The notes beneath the pieces are model-generated. The model worked only from the letters and a program-made list of their open reading frames with translations, was not told the origin of the DNA and ran no database searches. From NCBI GenBank assembly GCA_013202295.1, contig JABMRT010000227.1, forward strand, positions 1 to 54,528: 54,528 bases of DNA. The letters are read 5' to 3'. This stretch comes from Candidatus Zhuqueibacterota bacterium. Lineage in GTDB: Bacteria; Zhuqueibacterota; QNDG01; JABMRT01. Both the position numbers and the translations under genes were made by a program. Positions 1 to 54,528 of this stretch are shown one piece after another. Position 1 is the first letter of the stretch; each line of letters opens with the position of its first letter.

Positions 1-18
1 CTTATTAAGAATTGCAAC

Positions 19-138
19 ATAACACAAAAATGCAGTGGATTGAAAACAGCGGCTTTTTTTGGGGATTTGAAAGTATGTTGGAATCACTTGTATTCTTTAG
101 AGTTTCGGTTTGTTTCCAACCACTGATTTAATCGTTAT
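19..138 (+). other. integron attC-like recombination site 1
   Basis: A 120-bp imperfect inverted repeat. The outer arms are ATAAC (19-23) and GTTAT (134-138). The inner arms are CAGTGGATTGAAAAC (33-47) and GTTTCCAACCACTG (112-125), which pair with one mismatch and one unpaired base. The unpaired base and the simple-to-inner-arm spacing of about 9 bp are what integron attC sites show. Two further sites of the same size and end sequence occur at 1570 and 2652. The site closes a cassette whose gene lies left of the window. No integrase gene is visible. Confidence 0.72.
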
Positions 139-210
139 GTCACAACAAGATGCTCTAAACGTGTAAATATGCTATAGGTATGTAGAAAATCAGTTGGAAC
201 TGTAACAATA

Positions 211-239
211 TTGAAATTGAAAACCGTGATTGATAAAAT
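211..239 (+). promoter_or_regulatory. sigma-70-type promoter of the first cassette gene
   Basis: TTGAAA (211-216), a 17-bp spacer and TAAAAT (234-239) match a housekeeping promoter. Transcription would start near 246, just before the ribosome binding site AAGGAA (258-263). That placement leaves no room for translation from the ATG at 252 and supports the ATG at 270. Confidence 0.55.
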
Positions 240-269
240 GACTCTCAGTAAATGTTCAAGGAAATTATC

Positions 270-1244
270 ATGACAAAACATTTAATATTACTGTTTTCAG
301 TGATAGTCTTATCTCATTGTGATAAAAAAGAGGATTTATCCTTTATCGACCGAATTCAACCTGTTCCCAGCGAAAGTGGCTTTAAAATGGATGGCTATTG
401 GGTGTGGGGTGGCTCTGCTATTAAAGTCGACTCGACATACCACCTGCTTGCTTCACGATGGCCAAAAGGACACGAGTTTCCTCTTAACTACAGAACAGAT
501 TCTGAAATTGTAAGGGCAACTTCTCGGTCTGCGTTGGGCCCTTATGAATTTCAAGAGATAGTAATTGGTGAAAGAGATAGCTCATTTTGGGATTCAAATA
601 TGGCGCACAATCCGACAATCCACAAAATCGGTGATACATTTGTATTGTTCTATATCGGTAGCGACTTTTCAACTATGCATAAAAATGGAAAGCAACTCCA
701 CCGTTGTGTTGGCTATGCTACAGCAAAAAACATTAAAGGCCCGTGGAAGAGATCTAAGAATCCAATAATTGCTGAGGAATCCAATAATCCGGCTGTTTTT
801 GTTGAAAACGATGGTTCTATTAAGCTTGTATACCGTGATGCACCATTACGTATTTATCTCGCAACTGCGCCATCATACGATGGAGAATATACTCTTGTAA
901 ATGATAACGTTTGGTCGCCAGCCAAGCTGGAAGATTTTTATATTTTTAAGCGAAACGGCAGCTACCACATCATCTGCGAGGATAATGTCGGGCACGTGTC
1001 GGGACATGTCCGTTGGGGTGTTCACCTGGTTTCAATGGATGGGATTCATGACTGGCAATCATTCGAATCCCCTGTTGTTTATACCCACGACATTCATTTT
1101 GAGGATGGCCGCGTCCTTGAATGTAACCGTAGAGAACGACCGCAACTGCTCATTGAACAGAGAAAGATTACCCATCTGCTTACGGGTGTTTATGATGGGG
1201 AAAATTCGTGGTGTCAACCGGTCAAACTGAATCCCAATTATTAG
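270..1244 (+). CDS. GH43/GH117-like five-bladed propeller glycosidase, putative lipoprotein
   Basis: A 324-residue exported protein. It starts at the ATG at 270, which has AAGGAA six bases upstream and a promoter at 211-239. A hydrophobic leader ends in LSHC, a non-canonical lipobox with His before Cys, so lipidation is likely but not certain. The body has the short repeating beta-propeller pattern of the GH43/GH62/GH117 clan: phrases such as YATAKNIKGPW, an Asn-Pro element after FWDSNMAHNPTIH, and FVLFYIGSDF typical of 'hydrolase family 43-like' proteins. Expected role is hydrolysis or binding of a plant or algal glycan at the cell surface. Catalytic acids could not be assigned with confidence. 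It sits alone in an integron-type cassette between attC-like sites 1 and 2. Confidence 0.6.
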   Translation: MTKHLILLFSVIVLSHCDKKEDLSFIDRIQPVPSESGFKMDGYWVWGGSAIKVDSTYHLLASRWPKGHEFPLNYRTDSEIVRATSRSALGPYEFQEIVIGERDSSFWDSNMAHNPTIHKIGDTFVLFYIGSDFSTMHKNGKQLHRCVGYATAKNIKGPWKRSKNPIIAEESNNPAVFVENDGSIKLVYRDAPLRIYLATAPSYDGEYTLVNDNVWSPAKLEDFYIFKRNGSYHIICEDNVGHVSGHVRWGVHLVSMDGIHDWQSFESPVVYTHDIHFEDGRVLECNRRERPQLLIEQRKITHLLTGVYDGENSWCQPVKLNPNY

Positions 1245-1288
1245 CTCAGCCAAATTTTTGGAAATTATAAATTGGAGAGGAGAGGTTT

Positions 1289-1514
1289 ATGATATCCAAG
1301 TTCAGCGTTTTTTTCTCATCAGTATAATTGCACTGGCAGATGCCTTTGACACAATCCGGCAACGCCGATTTGAAATGCTCGTTTGGGGACCAGATATCGA
1401 TGAAAACGACCCTACCATTCAGGAGATCATGAAAAGCCGCGCACGGTCGGCATCGACGCGGTGGGAGAGCATGAACAAATCGCCGAACCGGACATCAATT
1501 TGTATAAAGCATGA
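1289..1514 (+). pseudogene. short frameshifted gene remnant of unknown function
   Basis: A strong ribosome binding site (GGAGAGGAGAGG, 1274-1285) precedes the ATG at 1289, but that frame stops after 12 codons, just past a T7 run. Protein-like sequence then continues in a second frame (FEMLVWGPDIDENDPTIQEIM) and switches to a third (TVGIDAVGEHEQIAEP), ending at the TGA at 1512-1514. The simplest reading is one small gene broken by two frameshifts. An uninterrupted 108-codon frame (1258-1584) also crosses this region, but its second half reads as low-quality Arg/Ser-rich sequence. I do not recognise the family. It lies in the same cassette as the glycosidase-like gene, downstream of it. Confidence 0.35.
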
Positions 1515-1569
1515 CAAGCAGTCCCAGGTTGGAAGTAAAGTCTTAACGGTCAAAGGCATAGTTAATGAC

Positions 1570-1690
1570 ATAACAACGAACTGAAGCGGACTCAAAAGCT
1601 TACCTTTTTATGAGTTTTGAGAGTTAGGTGGAATTTCATTTATCTTCGAAATATCGGTTTACTTTTGAGCCCGCTTAGTTAAATCGTTAT
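1570..1690 (+). other. integron attC-like recombination site 2
   Basis: A 121-bp imperfect inverted repeat. ATAAC (1570-1574) pairs with GTTAT (1686-1690). AAGCGGACTCAAAAG (1584-1598) pairs with CTTTTGAGCCCGCTT (1662-1676) with a single mismatch. The site ends in CGTTATAC, the form expected for the cleaved R-prime box. It separates the glycosidase cassette from the protease-like cassette. Confidence 0.75.
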
Positions 1691-1714
1691 ACGGTAAAGA
1701 AATAGGATAATCAA

Positions 1715-2629
1715 TTGAATTTGAAATCTAAATTATCAAATAGTTCATTAGCAATTATATTTATTTTATCTATTTCATGCCAAAACCAAGATGATTTGAA
1801 TGAGCTCGTGTCTATCCCATTTTATTTTAACGAAAAAATGGAAAACGGCCACATTGACGGCAATGCTTATATAAACGTTGTAATAGATAATGATTCCTTA
1901 ATGCTTTTCTTGGATACAGGCAATCCTTCTGCATCAATAGATCTCACACCAAGGACACTTGAACGGATTGATGTAAAATTTACTGGTATATCAACCAAAT
2001 CATATAATTATAAAGGTGAAGAATATATTTCGCGTGAATACATATTGCCTAAGGCAAAAATTGCTGACTTGGAAGTGACAAATATTCATGGAAAAGAACA
2101 TATGATGAGAGGCTCTTCTGCGGGCACATTTAGCTTCAAATTTCTTGAAAATTATAATGTATTGATTGATTTCCCCAATTCGAATATGCGGTTATATAAA
2201 TTAGAATATCTCCCAACTTTTTTAAAAAAACAAGCTTGGGAACAAGTTGATGCTTTTATTCAAGGTGGTTTTAGAATGCGCCTAAAGTTAGACGGATTTA
2301 AAAATGATATAATATTTACAATAGATAATGCCGCTATTGCTTTAGATGACATTCAAAAGCCGTATGGACTAATAAGGGCAAAATCTTTATTTGGCACCTA
2401 TTTGAAAGAAAACAATCTAATCCAACCAAAAGAGGATGACTCGTCAATCGACGGAATATTTAGTTCTGATGATTTCAAACTAAACGGAAATACTATTCCC
2501 AAAATGGATTTTATGGTTGTTGATTATAAATATCCAGAGTCAGATGGTTTACTAGGCTATCACTTTTTTATCAAGAATCCTATGTTTATCGATTTTAAGA
2601 ATAAAATGATATATGTAAAAATTGAGTAA
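1715..2629 (+). CDS. retropepsin-like aspartic protease family lipoprotein
   Basis: 304 residues from a TTG start preceded by AGGATA, opening 24 bases after attC-like site 2. The leader ends in LSISC, a plausible lipobox at about residues 19-23. The fold assignment rests on two features of pepsin/retropepsin-like bacterial proteins: the LFLDTGNPSASID segment at about residues 65-77, holding the catalytic DTG, and the C-terminal pattern DGLLGYHFFIKNPMFIDF followed by KMIYVK, which matches the family's 'DGxLGxxFLxxxxxxIDxxxxxIxx' ending. Such proteins form dimers or have a second half-site. A second DTG-like triplet is not obvious here. The gene is visibly AT-rich compared with the genes from 4 kb on, which fits cassette-borne transfer. 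Role unknown: peptide cleavage or binding on the periplasmic face of a membrane. Confidence 0.6.
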   Translation: MNLKSKLSNSSLAIIFILSISCQNQDDLNELVSIPFYFNEKMENGHIDGNAYINVVIDNDSLMLFLDTGNPSASIDLTPRTLERIDVKFTGISTKSYNYKGEEYISREYILPKAKIADLEVTNIHGKEHMMRGSSAGTFSFKFLENYNVLIDFPNSNMRLYKLEYLPTFLKKQAWEQVDAFIQGGFRMRLKLDGFKNDIIFTIDNAAIALDDIQKPYGLIRAKSLFGTYLKENNLIQPKEDDSSIDGIFSSDDFKLNGNTIPKMDFMVVDYKYPESDGLLGYHFFIKNPMFIDFKNKMIYVKIE

Positions 2630-2651
2630 TTACATTTAAGTTATTTGTCGT

Positions 2652-2770
2652 ATAACCAAGTACTTCAGTGGAACAAAACGCGCACTTTTTATTGTGATTT
2701 GAAGGTTTTGTCTTAAACATTTATTCATTAATAATTGTTATGGCGTTTGTCCACTGAGTACCAACGTTAT
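2652..2770 (+). other. integron attC-like recombination site 3
   Basis: A 119-bp imperfect inverted repeat: ATAAC (2652-2656) with GTTAT (2766-2770), and an inner left arm at 2661-2681 with GCGTTTGTCCACTGAGTA (2743-2760). The left inner arm has three extra unpaired bases (T, T and A) relative to the right arm. Such extrahelical bases set the strand choice of integron integrases. It closes the protease-like cassette. Confidence 0.75.
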
Positions 2771-2834
2771 CGGCAGACCGATATTAAATCTTGTGTTATG
2801 CGTAGTCCACAATTATTTGAAAGGAGATCCAACC

Positions 2835-3293
2835 ATGAAAACGCTCATTCTGCTCCTCTCGGTTTTATTACTCGTCACTTCTTGTGAGATGGCACAGAAC
2901 ACGCTGACTCAGGAAGAAGTCGAACAGGCCATTCTTGCCAAAGAGCGTATGGCGCTTGATCGCTGGTCCGCGGGAGATCCTGCCGGTTTTGCTTCCGTTT
3001 TTGCAGACGATGTGACCTACTTCGACGATATTGGCGCGTCAGCGAGACTTGAGGGCCTTGAAGAGGTTCAAGCTTATCTCGCGTCGCTTGAAGGGCAAAT
3101 CCCGGTTCATGATTATGAGATTGTGGATCACATGGTTCAGGTCTATGATGATATCGCGATCAGTACAATGCAATACCATGGCAGTGTAGATGGTCAGGCC
3201 GGCCCGCCATGGAAAGCCACAGATGTGTACCGGCTGATCAATGGCGAGTGGAAGATGGTGCATGGCCACTGGTCTTTGGTGAAAATACAGTGA
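2835..3293 (+). CDS. NTF2-like (SnoaL/DUF4440-type) lipoprotein
   Basis: 152 residues from the ATG at 2835, with AAGGAG 5-10 bases upstream. The upstream in-frame extension lacks a ribosome binding site and would bury the signal. The leader MKTLILLLSVLLLVTSC has a canonical lipobox. The mature part has the cone-fold NTF2-like pattern: an N-terminal helix with WSAGDPAGFASVFADDVTYFDD, then GLEEVQAYL, and a closing DVYRLINGEWKMVHGHWS strand pair. Bacterial members bind or transform small molecules, and the substrate cannot be told. It follows attC-like site 3, but no attC-like site follows it before the toxin-antitoxin genes, so it may be the last cassette or resident flanking DNA. Confidence 0.72.
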   Translation: MKTLILLLSVLLLVTSCEMAQNTLTQEEVEQAILAKERMALDRWSAGDPAGFASVFADDVTYFDDIGASARLEGLEEVQAYLASLEGQIPVHDYEIVDHMVQVYDDIAISTMQYHGSVDGQAGPPWKATDVYRLINGEWKMVHGHWSLVKIQ

Positions 3294-3487
3294 CGTCCAA
3301 TTCTTGTGTAACCTGATGTTGAGAATACACATCTGAAATCTGAATAATCAATGGCCCAGGAAAGTAACCTGGACTGCCCAGTAAAGTAATGATCTTCGAT
3401 AATATGATTTCGGGATTCTGTACCAGTGTGAAAAAAAGAGAGTAATTATCTCGTTCCAATGCTTTTCTTTGAAACAGAGAATATTTA

Positions 3488-3530
3488 TTGACATTTATCA
3501 TCCATTGACGTACTTTATCCCGTACGTTAA
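3488..3530 (+). promoter_or_regulatory. toxin-antitoxin promoter with overlapping operator
   Basis: TTGACA (3488-3493), 17 bp and TACTTT (3511-3516) form a promoter 31 bp before the antitoxin start. An inverted repeat, TTGACGTAC (3505-3513), 8 bp, GTACGTTAA (3522-3530), lies across the -10 box. Phd/YefM antitoxins typically bind such palindromes and repress their own operon, so this is the probable autoregulatory site. The preceding stretch (3294-3487) shows nothing else I can name. Confidence 0.55.
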
Positions 3531-3546
3531 TTTGCGGAGCAGAAGA

Positions 3547-3789
3547 ATGAAAACAATCACTGTAACAAACGCGCGGTCATCCTTATATAAACTGATTGAT
3601 GAGTCATCCTCAGTGCACGAACCGATTGTAATCACGGGAAAAAGATCAAATGCTGTACTCGTTTCCGAGGATGATTGGAGAGCGATACAGGAAACTTTAT
3701 ATTTGCTATCAGTGCCCGGTATGAGAGAGTCGATCATTAAAGGCATGAAGACACCTGTCAGTGAATGTTCAGAGGAACTGGACTGGTGA
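3547..3789 (+). CDS. Phd/YefM family antitoxin
   Basis: 80 residues from the ATG at 3547; a longer in-frame reading from 3469 runs through the promoter/operator and is rejected. The N-terminal MKTITVTNARSSLYKLIDE and ITGKRSNAVLVSEDDWRAI are hallmarks of the Phd/YefM DNA-binding fold. The C-terminal part (from about residue 55) is the flexible toxin-wrapping tail. It would neutralise the downstream YoeB-like RNase and, with it, repress the operon through the palindrome at 3505-3530. The stop codon overlaps the toxin's GTG start, so the two are translationally coupled. Confidence 0.9.
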   Translation: MKTITVTNARSSLYKLIDESSSVHEPIVITGKRSNAVLVSEDDWRAIQETLYLLSVPGMRESIIKGMKTPVSECSEELDW

Positions 3790-4049
3790 GCTATAAACTT
3801 GTTTTCACAAAGCAAGCGCAAAAAGAAGCAAAAAATCTGAAATCATCCGGCCTGAAAGAAAATGCACAGTCCACCCTCGATCTCATTCAAAATAATCCAT
3901 TTCAAGCCCAACCTCCCTATGAAAAACTTGTTGGCGATTTAAGCGGAACTTATTCAAGGAGAATAAATATCCAACATCGCATGGTCTATCAGGTGCTGGA
4001 AGAAATCAAGACAGTCAAGGTCATCAGAATGTGGTCTCATTACGAATAA
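3786..4049 (+). CDS. Txe/YoeB family mRNA-interferase toxin
   Basis: 87 residues from the GTG at 3786, which overlaps the antitoxin stop (GTGA). The sequence follows the Txe/YoeB family along its whole length: YKLVFTKQAQKEAKNLKSSG at the start, NPFQAQPPYEKLVGDLSGTYSRRIN in the middle and IQHRMVYQVLEE to MWSHYE at the end. The terminal His-Tyr, Arg and Glu residues needed for ribosome-dependent mRNA cleavage are present, so the toxin looks intact. It follows the cassette region, where such modules are often found as stabilisers, but no attC site flanks it. Confidence 0.93.
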   Translation: MSYKLVFTKQAQKEAKNLKSSGLKENAQSTLDLIQNNPFQAQPPYEKLVGDLSGTYSRRINIQHRMVYQVLEEIKTVKVIRMWSHYE

Positions 4050-24382: not shown

Positions 24383-26554
24383 TCATTTGGTTAATAACAT
24401 CTTCATTGTTGCTGTATAATCCCCCATTTGTATCTGGTACAAATATATCCCAGAGGCCATACCATTGGCATGAAATTCAACTTTATAATGTCCAGTGGGC
24501 ATATTTTGATCAACATAAGTAGATACTAACCTGCCCAGAATATCATATACCCTTAAAGTGACGTGACAAGTTTTTTGCACATCAAATTCAATCTGTGTAG
24601 ATGGATTAAAGGGATTCGGATAGTTTTGTGAAAGAACATATCCTTTTGGTGATTCAATATTTTTTTCTTCAAATACTGTTGTAATTCCACCATTTGTTGT
24701 TCGGAGTATAGTACCATTGTTACCAACGGTATTACCAATATTTTCATCAACAAAAGAAACAGACATTAAATCTTCATCTGTTCCTGCCGATTGGATTTCC
24801 CAGGTTATTCCACCGTCTTTGGTATGCAGGATCATTCCATCGCTTCCCACTACAGAACCATTGTCCGCGTCGATGAAAGAAACTCCATAAAAATCTTCAT
24901 CTGTGCCGCTCGATTGAACTGTCCAGTTAGTCCCACCGTCATTTGTGCGAAGAATTGTTCCATCGTCACCAACCACAGTACCGGTATTAACATCGGTAAA
25001 GCAAACCCCATGCAAATCCTTAGTTGTCCCGCTAGACTGAGTAGTCCAGTTTTCTCCGCCATTAGTTGTACTCCTGATATATCCATTATAACCAACAATT
25101 GTACCAATATCATTATCTATAAATGACACATCGGTCAATGGATTTGTGTTACTACTGATGTAGCGTTCATTCCACGTTACTCCTCCGTCCTTTGTGATAG
25201 CGTAGCCCGCATAATCGATCCCGGTAATTTTGTAAACACCTACAGCGATGCATACATTTGCACTGGGTGATGAAACTCCGTTAAATGCGGCTTTATCATA
25301 ATTGTATGGAACATCCCAGGTATTTCCTCCATTGGTTGTGTGTAGAATCAAACCATATTCTGCTCCGTAAGGCATGAGTCCATCGCTATATGGATCCCCG
25401 CTAACAGCAAAACCATTATTTGCATCTGAAAAAGAGACGGCTTTCAAGTGATCATTAATTGAACCATTTGTAGTAGGAGAAGTGTATGATTGAGAAAGCC
25501 AGTTACTTCCACCGTCGGTAGTATGAAGGATGGTACCATTATGTCCTACCGCAGTTCCGACATTCTCATTTGTAAAACAAATCCCTCTTAATTTTCTTAC
25601 CGGCCCGGTTATTTGTGCATCCCAGGTTGTCCCTTCGTTAATAGTGCGGAATATTTGTCCAGCTGTACCAACAAGAGTGTTATGCGAAGCACCATAGAAA
25701 TTACCATCGCTGTCACCGACCTGATGATACCTTGTCCACAATGTCCCTCCTTCAGTAACCAGAACCACAGTAGCTGATTTACCAACTATTAAACAGTTGT
25801 TTATATTGGTAAAAGATACATCGTATAAATTATTTTCAGTTACTTGCATCAATGTCCAGCTTGTCCCGCCATCATTTGTAATGATAAACGTCCCGGCGGT
25901 ACCGACAGCAATCCCATTATTTGCATCCAGAAAAGAGACAGCTGTTAAAGATTTAGTAGTGCCGCTGCTTTGTTCAATCCAGGTATTCCCTCCATCTGTG
26001 GTCCGTATAACTTTCCCGGATGTACCCACAATTGTCCCTGTGTTAACATCAGTAAAGGAAACCGAGGATAAATTACCATACCATCCGTTTGGAACACCCT
26101 GCTGAGTTACCCAATTTTTTCCACCATCAATTGTTCGTAGAATAACTCCCATTACTCCAATTGTTGTTCCGTTATTCGCATCGGAAAAAGATACTCCATA
26201 CAGTGCATTTGTGGTGCCACTTGATTGAGCATCCCAGGTTTGACCACCGTCTTTTGTATTAAGAATTGTTCCATGATTTCCGACCGTGGTTCCGTTATTT
26301 GCATCGGTAAATGAAACATCATTCAGGTTCTCGTAAGTCCCGCTTTCCTGAGCTACCCAATTGTTGCCACCATCTGTGGTTCGTATTATCGTTCCATAAT
26401 TACCAACCGCGGTACCATTGTTAGCATCTGAAAATGATACTCCCTGAAGTGTATTTCCTTGGGGAAGAGGATTTTGCCAGAACCAACCCTCTTGAGCTTT
26501 CAGATTAACACTAAAAAAGAAATAAAATAATAAAAAGAAAGTTATTCGTTTCAT
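24383..26554 (-). CDS. secreted Ycf48-like double seven-bladed beta-propeller with T9SS tail
   Basis: 723 residues; signal peptide 1-20 (LKAQ), ribosome binding site AAAGGG. The body consists of 14 consecutive units of about 40-55 residues of the form VSFxDxNxGTxVGxxGTIxxTxDGGxxW, the Ycf48/BNR-type propeller blade. Fourteen fits two seven-bladed propellers; blades 7, 9 and 10 carry the largest changes. The last 90 residues are a T9SS sorting domain (SQNYPNPFNPSTQ to KMLLTK), so the protein is exported through the outer membrane and probably cell-surface attached. Proteins of this kind often act as adhesins or binding scaffolds; no catalytic residues are evident. Confidence 0.9.
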   Translation of the reverse strand: MKRITFFLLFYFFFSVNLKAQEGWFWQNPLPQGNTLQGVSFSDANNGTAVGNYGTIIRTTDGGNNWVAQESGTYENLNDVSFTDANNGTTVGNHGTILNTKDGGQTWDAQSSGTTNALYGVSFSDANNGTTIGVMGVILRTIDGGKNWVTQQGVPNGWYGNLSSVSFTDVNTGTIVGTSGKVIRTTDGGNTWIEQSSGTTKSLTAVSFLDANNGIAVGTAGTFIITNDGGTSWTLMQVTENNLYDVSFTNINNCLIVGKSATVVLVTEGGTLWTRYHQVGDSDGNFYGASHNTLVGTAGQIFRTINEGTTWDAQITGPVRKLRGICFTNENVGTAVGHNGTILHTTDGGSNWLSQSYTSPTTNGSINDHLKAVSFSDANNGFAVSGDPYSDGLMPYGAEYGLILHTTNGGNTWDVPYNYDKAAFNGVSSPSANVCIAVGVYKITGIDYAGYAITKDGGVTWNERYISSNTNPLTDVSFIDNDIGTIVGYNGYIRSTTNGGENWTTQSSGTTKDLHGVCFTDVNTGTVVGDDGTILRTNDGGTNWTVQSSGTDEDFYGVSFIDADNGSVVGSDGMILHTKDGGITWEIQSAGTDEDLMSVSFVDENIGNTVGNNGTILRTTNGGITTVFEEKNIESPKGYVLSQNYPNPFNPSTQIEFDVQKTCHVTLRVYDILGRLVSTYVDQNMPTGHYKVEFHANGMASGIYLYQIQMGDYTATMKMLLTK

Positions 26555-53557: not shown

Positions 53558-54528
53558 CTATTTCAGGAGAATCATTTTTCTGATTAATACAGCGTTATCC
53601 TTCATGGCATTGCTTTCCATCCGATAAAAATACAGGCCCGATCCCAGCTCGGAAGCATCGAGGTGTGCCTGATACACGCCCGGACCGTGCGGTCCGTTCA
53701 CCAGCTCACACACACACTCGCCCCGGACATTATACACGGCCAGCCGGATCTCACTGGGCTCCGGCACGGCATAGTTGATGGTCGTGGATGCGTTGAAGGG
53801 ATTCGGATAATTCTGCAGGAGAGCGAATTCGGCCGGGATCCGGTTGTTCTGATTGTCCACGCCCGAAGGATCGGATGTGATGATGTACGCTGTTCTGGTT
53901 TTTGTGTCCTCACCGCCCGGACCAGCGACTGTGAGCGTGACATCAAAGGTGTCCGCATCCTGAAACAGATGGGAGGGATTCTGATTCGTGCTGGTGTTGC
54001 CGTCCCCGAAATCCCAGAGCCAGGATAATACCATTCCGGAGGATTGGTCCGTAAACTGCACCTCGAACGGTGTTGCGCCTTCCGTGGTGTCTGCCGTGAA
54101 ATCCGCGACCGGAGGCGGTTCCAAAACCGTGATGTAATCCGGCCTGACGAGCGTGTCCGCGCCGCTTTGTCCAGATGCAATAAGATTGACTGTGAAGGTG
54201 TCCACGGTTGTATATTGATGCACTGGATGCTGCTCCGCAGAAGTTTTCCCGTCACCAAAATCCCAGGACCATGCATCAACCAAACCAATAGACTCATCTG
54301 TAAATTTAACCTGCAATGGAACCGCACCGTGTGTGGTATCCGCAGTAAAGCCTGCAGTGGGCGCAAGGCCGGATGTTACAATATAATCCGGGCGGGTGAG
54401 CACATCCACACCCCCCGGCCCGATGACTGTCAGAGTGACTGCAAAGGAATCGATGGTGCTGTAGGTGTTTGACGGATTCTGTAAGATACTGGTATTGCCA
54501 TCTCCAAAATCCCACAGCCAGACGAAAA
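53558..54528 (-). CDS. partial gene H: PKD repeats and T9SS tail of a probable seventh ASST paralogue
   Basis: The frame is open to the right window edge, so the 5' part lies outside. Visible are three PKD units: the end of one equivalent to unit 3 of F/G, unit 4 (GFTADTTHGAVPLQVKFTDE) and unit 6 (ADTTEGATPFEVQFTDQS), followed by a T9SS tail (LQNYPNPFNASTT). The unit equivalent to number 5 is missing. The near identity to F/G tails makes an ASST-like propeller upstream very likely, but that is inferred. A GTG at 54407-54409 could be taken as a start but is an internal codon of unit 3. Confidence 0.85.
   Translation of the reverse strand, partial: FVWLWDFGDGNTSILQNPSNTYSTIDSFAVTLTVIGPGGVDVLTRPDYIVTSGLAPTAGFTADTTHGAVPLQVKFTDESIGLVDAWSWDFGDGKTSAEQHPVHQYTTVDTFTVNLIASGQSGADTLVRPDYITVLEPPPVADFTADTTEGATPFEVQFTDQSSGMVLSWLWDFGDGNTSTNQNPSHLFQDADTFDVTLTVAGPGGEDTKTRTAYIITSDPSGVDNQNNRIPAEFALLQNYPNPFNASTTINYAVPEPSEIRLAVYNVRGECVCELVNGPHGPGVYQAHLDASELGSGLYFYRMESNAMKDNAVLIRKMILLK

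Follow-up and report, generated by a model that had tools for sequence, protein, structure and literature searches.

Among described systems, those closest to the locus studied here are the sedentary chromosomal integrons, in particular the V. cholerae superintegron and its repeats (VCR), with which our system shares many co-oriented cassettes and a taxon-typical family of attC sites, each about 120 bp long with a large terminal loop. The likeness extends to the integrase, since the IntI encoded in the genome has IntI4 of V. cholerae as its nearest relative in the PDB, and to a mixed cargo that includes defence-like genes. Unlike those of the superintegron, however, the sites described here are distributed over about 35 contigs and several chromosomal locations; the host belongs to a different, FCB-like lineage, and sulfatases and proteins with C-terminal domains for type IX secretion are among the cargo. 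A second kind of relative is the integrase-less cluster (CALIN), for which the operational definition asks for two or more attC sites, spaced by less than 4 kb, and no intI. Taken on its own, the window (the whole stretch of DNA analysed, 54,528 nucleotides from a bacterium of the phylum Zhuqueibacterota) falls under this definition; unlike in a CALIN, its contig ends inside the array and the absence of intI in cis is not established. In Treponema-type integrons, intI is transcribed toward attI (PMC3607928). Our system appears to be set apart from these by a 117-aa gene, and in relatives also a cluster of short palindromes, between intI and attI.

A preliminary description of the window held that integrons in the FCB group are little described, which is only partly fair, as published surveys already cover Bacteroidota, Gemmatimonadota, Chlorobi and Ignavibacteriae (PMC8618304, PMC9024848). 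The chromosomal integron system reported here is large and apparently functional, and it comes from a lineage for which there are hardly any descriptions of integrons. Specifically, we conclude, with a probability of roughly 0.93, that positions 1–2772 of the window are the end of a chromosomal integron cassette array, comprising three attC sites, two complete cassettes and the attC of a third cassette extending beyond the contig end, and that the genome holds many such arrays.

Three attC sites at one end of the window

attC sites carry an R'' box (RYYYAAC) and an R' box (GTTRRRY). The three segments singled out in the preliminary description, at 19–138, 1570–1690 and 2652–2770, are indeed present, measure 120, 121 and 119 bp, and have ATAAC...CGTTAT ends. 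The R'' boxes of the corresponding sites (Table 1) read ACATAAC, ACATAAC and GTATAAC, each agreeing with the consensus at six of seven positions; among the R' boxes, GTTATGT and GTTATAC agree at six of seven positions, and GTTATCG of site 3 at four of seven. From R'' to R' the sites span 124, 125 and 123 bp, inside the range of about 57–142 nt given for attC sites (PMC2727003).

A loose regular-expression scan for R-box pairs was swamped by chance pairs, so covariance models were used in its place. R1 was built from the three window sites alone, with the loops left unspecified, whereas R2 and R3 are iterated, improved models that were trained on this genome only and run over the contigs examined. 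In the 54.5-kb window the models pick out the three sites (together with antisense copies) and no others; in particular, they find no attC site between site 3 and position 54528. Two ATAAC...CGTTAT pairs, at 26007 and 26142, were rejected as chance pairs, backed by no covariance model. A search of the whole window against Rfam at the gathering threshold gave no match.

The imperfect pairing with extra unpaired bases that had been proposed for the segments takes the form of a common bottom-strand plan in all three sites. In its outer part, ATAAC/GTTAT outer pairs are followed by an unpaired spacer, a stem of 4–5 bp and one unpaired base on the 3' arm; its inner part consists of a 6-bp stem (CAGTGG/CCACTG or AAGCGG/CCGCTT), an unpaired T, a stem of 8–9 bp and a 60-nt loop. 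When the bottom strands were folded, long interrupted hairpins were obtained for all three sites, and sites 2 and 3 did much better than dinucleotide shuffles (Table 1), whereas the fold energy of site 1 was shuffle-like (z -0.1) despite its having the same stem plan.

We scored 24 pairs in an alignment of 15 sites, made up of the three window sites and 12 from outside the window. Paired cells account for 88% of the total (89% in helix 1); with the arms shifted by 1 to 3 columns, the proportion is 30–49%. Changes on both sides are seen in 11 of the 24 pairs. The earlier proposal that structure is conserved while sequence varies was borne out: the alignment has 43 double-compensatory cells where shuffles give 14.4, and its covariation score of 0.339 (shuffles 0.112) was reached by 0 of 500 shuffles. 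The loop sequences are partly conserved among the aligned sites; conservation of the loop inside a taxon is known for attC sites, the V. cholerae repeats being an example. The extrahelical T is invariant in all 15 sites, and the second unpaired base, which is mostly C here as opposed to the conserved G of attC, follows 6 nt further on, in agreement with the published geometry of a T and then another extrahelical base 6–8 nt on (PMC2727003).

Table 1. Features of the array in the window and of the integrase platform and its relatives. Coordinates without a prefix are positions in the window; C and L prefixes denote contigs and loci.
Feature	Position	Strand	Remarks
attC site 1	17..140	+	R'' ACATAAC 17-23, R' GTTATGT 134-140; covariance model 112 bits, E 1.8e-23
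Gene cassette A	135..1686	+	Boundaries by the G^TTRRRY rule
GH43-like lipoprotein gene, cassette A	252..1244	+	PF04616 32.6 bits, cut-off 32.2; start may be ATG 270
Small ORF, 108 aa, end of cassette A	1258..1584	+	No family match; possible remnant
attC site 2	1568..1692	+	Fold z -4.2; covariance model 100.6 bits, E 1e-20
Gene cassette B	1687..2766	+	Boundaries by the cassette rule
Aspartyl-protease-like (retropepsin-type) lipoprotein gene, cassette B	1715..2629	+	PF13650 20.9 bits, below cut-off 24.3
attC site 3, last of the array on contig C218	2650..2772	+	Fold z -3.4; covariance model 93.6 bits, E 4.7e-19
intI	C8:40935-41930		Full-length, intact
orf117	L017:19016-19369		On C8; 117 aa
orf117 homologue	L097:15041-15388		On C68
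YCTANNNNTAGR palindrome cluster	L097:14889-15041		On C68
YCTANNNNTAGR palindrome cluster	L247:10938-11100		
YCTANNNNTAGR palindrome cluster	L251:10754-10960		
YCTANNNNTAGR palindrome cluster	L254:10822-11030		

The window array stops at a contig end

The window is the entire contig C218 of a 5.15-Mb genome in 303 contigs (95.7% complete). Because this contig breaks in the first attC, the array stops at an assembly end and not at a biological one, and it likely extends leftward beyond the window; the cassette to which site 1 belongs has its body beyond the contig on that side. By the established rule that cassettes are bounded at G^TTRRRY in R', two complete cassettes, A and B, can be delimited (Table 1). 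As regards the plus-strand cargo genes that had been assigned to them, the GH43-like lipoprotein passes its family cut-off, but the match of the retropepsin-like lipoprotein is weak and falls below it, and the ORF that had been taken for a remnant is without any match. One cargo gene had also been credited with a promoter of its own. A promoter-like match does occur at 211–239, but the window has 19 matches of this kind where 11.8 ± 3.0 are expected, which is not a clear excess over chance. Right after the last attC, at 2793–4049, lie a SnoaL/DUF4440-like lipoprotein gene and a Phd/YefM-YoeB toxin-antitoxin pair, which are not attC-bounded.

The genome holds many co-oriented arrays

R1 picks up sites on further contigs of the same genome, including C5, C142, C15, C6 and C209, and R2 and R3 bring the total for the examined contigs to 93 sites, counting weak ones, on 35 contigs. 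All 26 contigs that bear two or more sites have them in one orientation. Among 58 intersite intervals, 52 are at most 4 kb, and the median spacing is 1.16 kb. The longest ORF lies on the cassette strand in 50 of the 52 cassettes of up to 4 kb, with a mean of 1066 nt versus 211 nt on the opposite strand. The palindromes are thus not scattered singly without cassette genes; rather, 26 of the 35 contigs have several sites, co-oriented and with a cassette-strand gene between them. Several sites, among them one at C182:2507 (63 bp) and one at C119:26047 (68 bp), are of clearly different attC types, as would be expected if cassettes were captured. On most contigs with sites, at least one lies no more than about 2.5 kb from an end, a placement that has been noted for integrons as an effect of assembly (PMC9024848). 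Many sites lie on large chromosomal contigs. Sites also occur in several parts of the chromosome away from intI (e.g. C287, C68 and C119), so part of the set consists of integrase-less clusters.

Sixty-seven cassette proteins include five with a Por secretion tail and four sulfatases, as well as beta-propellers, thioredoxin-like proteins, a beta-lactamase-fold protein and an S15 peptidase; PADLOC matches among the cargo include a NucC-like nuclease and a TIR-like effector. The type IX tails are consistent with an FCB-type host. Secreted sulfatases and glycosidase-like enzymes, type IX substrates and a DRT8-like reverse transcriptase beside attI together suggest that what is shuffled is genes for polysaccharide use and defence, not antibiotic resistance.

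An intact integrase and a putative attI lie on another contig

The array had been described as lacking a visible integrase. This is true of the window, which contains neither intI nor attI, and matches to PF00589 occur only on contigs other than C218. The organism does, however, encode an intact IntI on contig C8, so that "without integrase" describes a contig break. The C8 protein (331 aa) scores 451 bits against TIGR02249, for which the cut-off is 265, and aligns end to end, including the IntI-specific region, with V. cholerae IntI4 (2a3v, E 1.2e-91). A second intI, on C241 (L019:1-1286), has its 3' part cut short, and a GIY-YIG-domain ORF is found where its end should be.

On C8, intI is followed 2 bp on by orf117, then by a short AT-rich stretch, GTCGTTAATACTATGTTAT and the first ORF. 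The 18-mer GTCGTTAATACTATGTTA stands directly before the first cassette on both C8 and C68 and, in the roughly 2 Mb of genome sequence examined, is found free of mismatches on these two contigs only; judged by its sequence and position, it is a putative attI. The first ORF past it on C8 (L017:19521-20000), cut by the contig end, encodes the N-terminal portion of a reverse transcriptase resembling the defence protein DRT8 (PADLOC E 4e-53). On C68 the 18-mer is preceded by a homologue of orf117, and then come a zinc dehydrogenase, an attC, an amidohydrolase, an S15-type peptidase, another attC and so on. This array has no intI. An inverted repeat on C8, L017:19369-19494, was considered as an attC and dropped because its right end is the putative attI and no model supports it, and Rfam at E<=1 gave no match around the C8 platform. 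A sequence with three mismatches to the 18-mer, TATATAATACTATGTTATTC, occurs at L123:1087 (C248, minus strand), near the other end of a contig bearing a five-site array.

In this genome, then, we observe the sites and their covariation, the strand coherence of the arrays, cassette genes at about one per interval, an intact integrase and a putative attI, and together with the attC-like structure of the sites these findings confirm the attC reading. Against the integron array count the absence of intI and attI from the window, the shuffle-like fold of site 1, the imperfect R boxes, the usual C at the second extrahelical position and the sites in parts of the chromosome away from intI; in addition, the assembly is fragmented and the linkage of contigs, including that of the C8 intI and putative attI to the window, is not proven. 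We infer that these sites are substrates of IntI, and that the array in the window is connected to an intI–attI platform or descends from one. In single-stranded DNA, the bottom strand of attC would fold into a hairpin with extrahelical bases, and the tyrosine recombinase encoded on C8 would bind the folded site and cut inside the R' box (G^TTRRRY). Cassettes could then leave as circles, or enter at attI or at other attC sites, and genes would be shuffled in one orientation.

Related sites and integrases in the phylum and beyond

IntI scores above the curated cut-off in 35 of 82 genomes of the phylum, and attC matches at E<=0.001 occur in 39 of the 82. Matches near 100 bits in other genera indicate that the attC family is common to the lineage. 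Both layouts are represented, the array lying downstream of intI in G020, G064, G090 and G028 and the arrangement being divergent in G017, G070 and G018. One of these genomes, G064, is near-complete (five contigs) and has, besides its intI locus, a six-site cluster and several pairs far from intI; integrase-less clusters can therefore coexist with a complete intI locus. Of 80 named IntI loci from other phyla, 22 gave matches to R3, with 32 sites in total. Thirty of these sites lie upstream of intI on the strand of the classic divergent layout; L158 is co-directional and L159:9604 is an exception. A relative within the phylum, G017, has on its contig C18 (L291:7000-17876) a regular array that reaches the contig end, with attC sites about 680 bp apart on one strand.

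Alternative readings of the array

True attC sites could also form a dead or integrase-less cluster, detached from its platform and no longer mobilised in cis. This is a sub-case of the attC reading, with which its probability overlaps, and we regard it as a serious possibility at somewhat below even odds. The lack of intI in the window, the many sites of this genome on large chromosomal contigs and the clusters far from intI in G064 all speak for it. The intact IntI, however, could act in trans, and the stems of the sites are kept intact. Moreover, C5:1-119 is identical over 119 bp to positions 22–140 of the window, and divergence starts at the base after GTTATGT, 6 nt past the predicted G^TT position of R'; thus, one and the same attC precedes the GH43-like cassette on C218 and a different cassette on C5, which suggests movement. 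As a pattern in sequence, this junction could have arisen by recombination at the R' box or from the presence of one cassette in two copies, and does not by itself demonstrate current activity.

A MITE- or REP-like family of dispersed palindromes with no more than a resemblance to attC would account for sites that are numerous, placed in many positions and partly conserved in their loops. We consider this most improbable given the strict strand coherence inside contigs, the single gene per interval, the invariant extrahelical T in stems that vary and covary, and the related sites that adjoin IntI in other phyla, together with the intact IntI of this genome; loop conservation is in any case known for attC within a taxon. 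That three unrelated inverted repeats came to lie by a contig end through chance or faulty assembly, for which only the fold of site 1 could be cited, is already refuted by E-values of 1e-18 to 1e-23 (for the searched set), by 90 related sites in the genome and by matches of 100 bits in other genera.

A small protein encoded beside intI

The gene beside intI on C8, orf117, has a 117-aa product, whose family members are 115–117 aa long. Intact orf117 (E<=1e-37) is present in 17 genomes of the phylum; of these, 15 have intI as well, in every case within about 600 bp of orf117 and in the same direction. Another genome of the phylum, G094, has four strong matches to orf117 and no IntI match at E<=1e-70. 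The protein belongs to no Pfam, NCBIfam or PHROGs family, showing just a weak similarity to DUF5710 (best E 0.017, in 3 of 16 members); it has no sequence match in the PDB, and Foldseek returned no match below E 0.6, though the predicted model is confident (pLDDT 91). With family and fold searches giving no match, a HARP/DUF5710-like single-strand-binding domain was rejected as unsupported. We found no description of an intI-linked accessory protein in the open-access literature.

Between orf117 and attI we noted short palindromes of the form YCTANNNNTAGR. They number 15 in 1.5 kb, whereas the other 116 kb of these loci contain just 2 and shuffles 0.12, an enrichment that is inflated because the motif was chosen after looking. 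The clusters, which occur in several relatives and on C68, are listed in Table 1; C8 has none. We hypothesize that the orf117 protein has a DNA-binding role at attI. More broadly, though we think it rather unlikely, these loci might constitute a distinct type of integron platform in which intI is encoded with a small orf117-type protein and, in several members, a YCTANNNNTAGR cluster precedes attI, the protein being a dedicated accessory or regulatory DNA-binding factor at attI and possibly the first integron-encoded partner of IntI. Were orf117 such a partner, one could test whether there are integrons that bring along a recombination or expression factor of their own. On this reading IntI may serve several arrays in trans, since the array on C68 lacks intI and yet retains an orf117 gene and the 18-mer taken as attI. 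Outside the phylum, orf117 adjoins intI in 4 of 80 loci, one from Spirochaetes, two from Chloroflexi and one from Acidobacteria.
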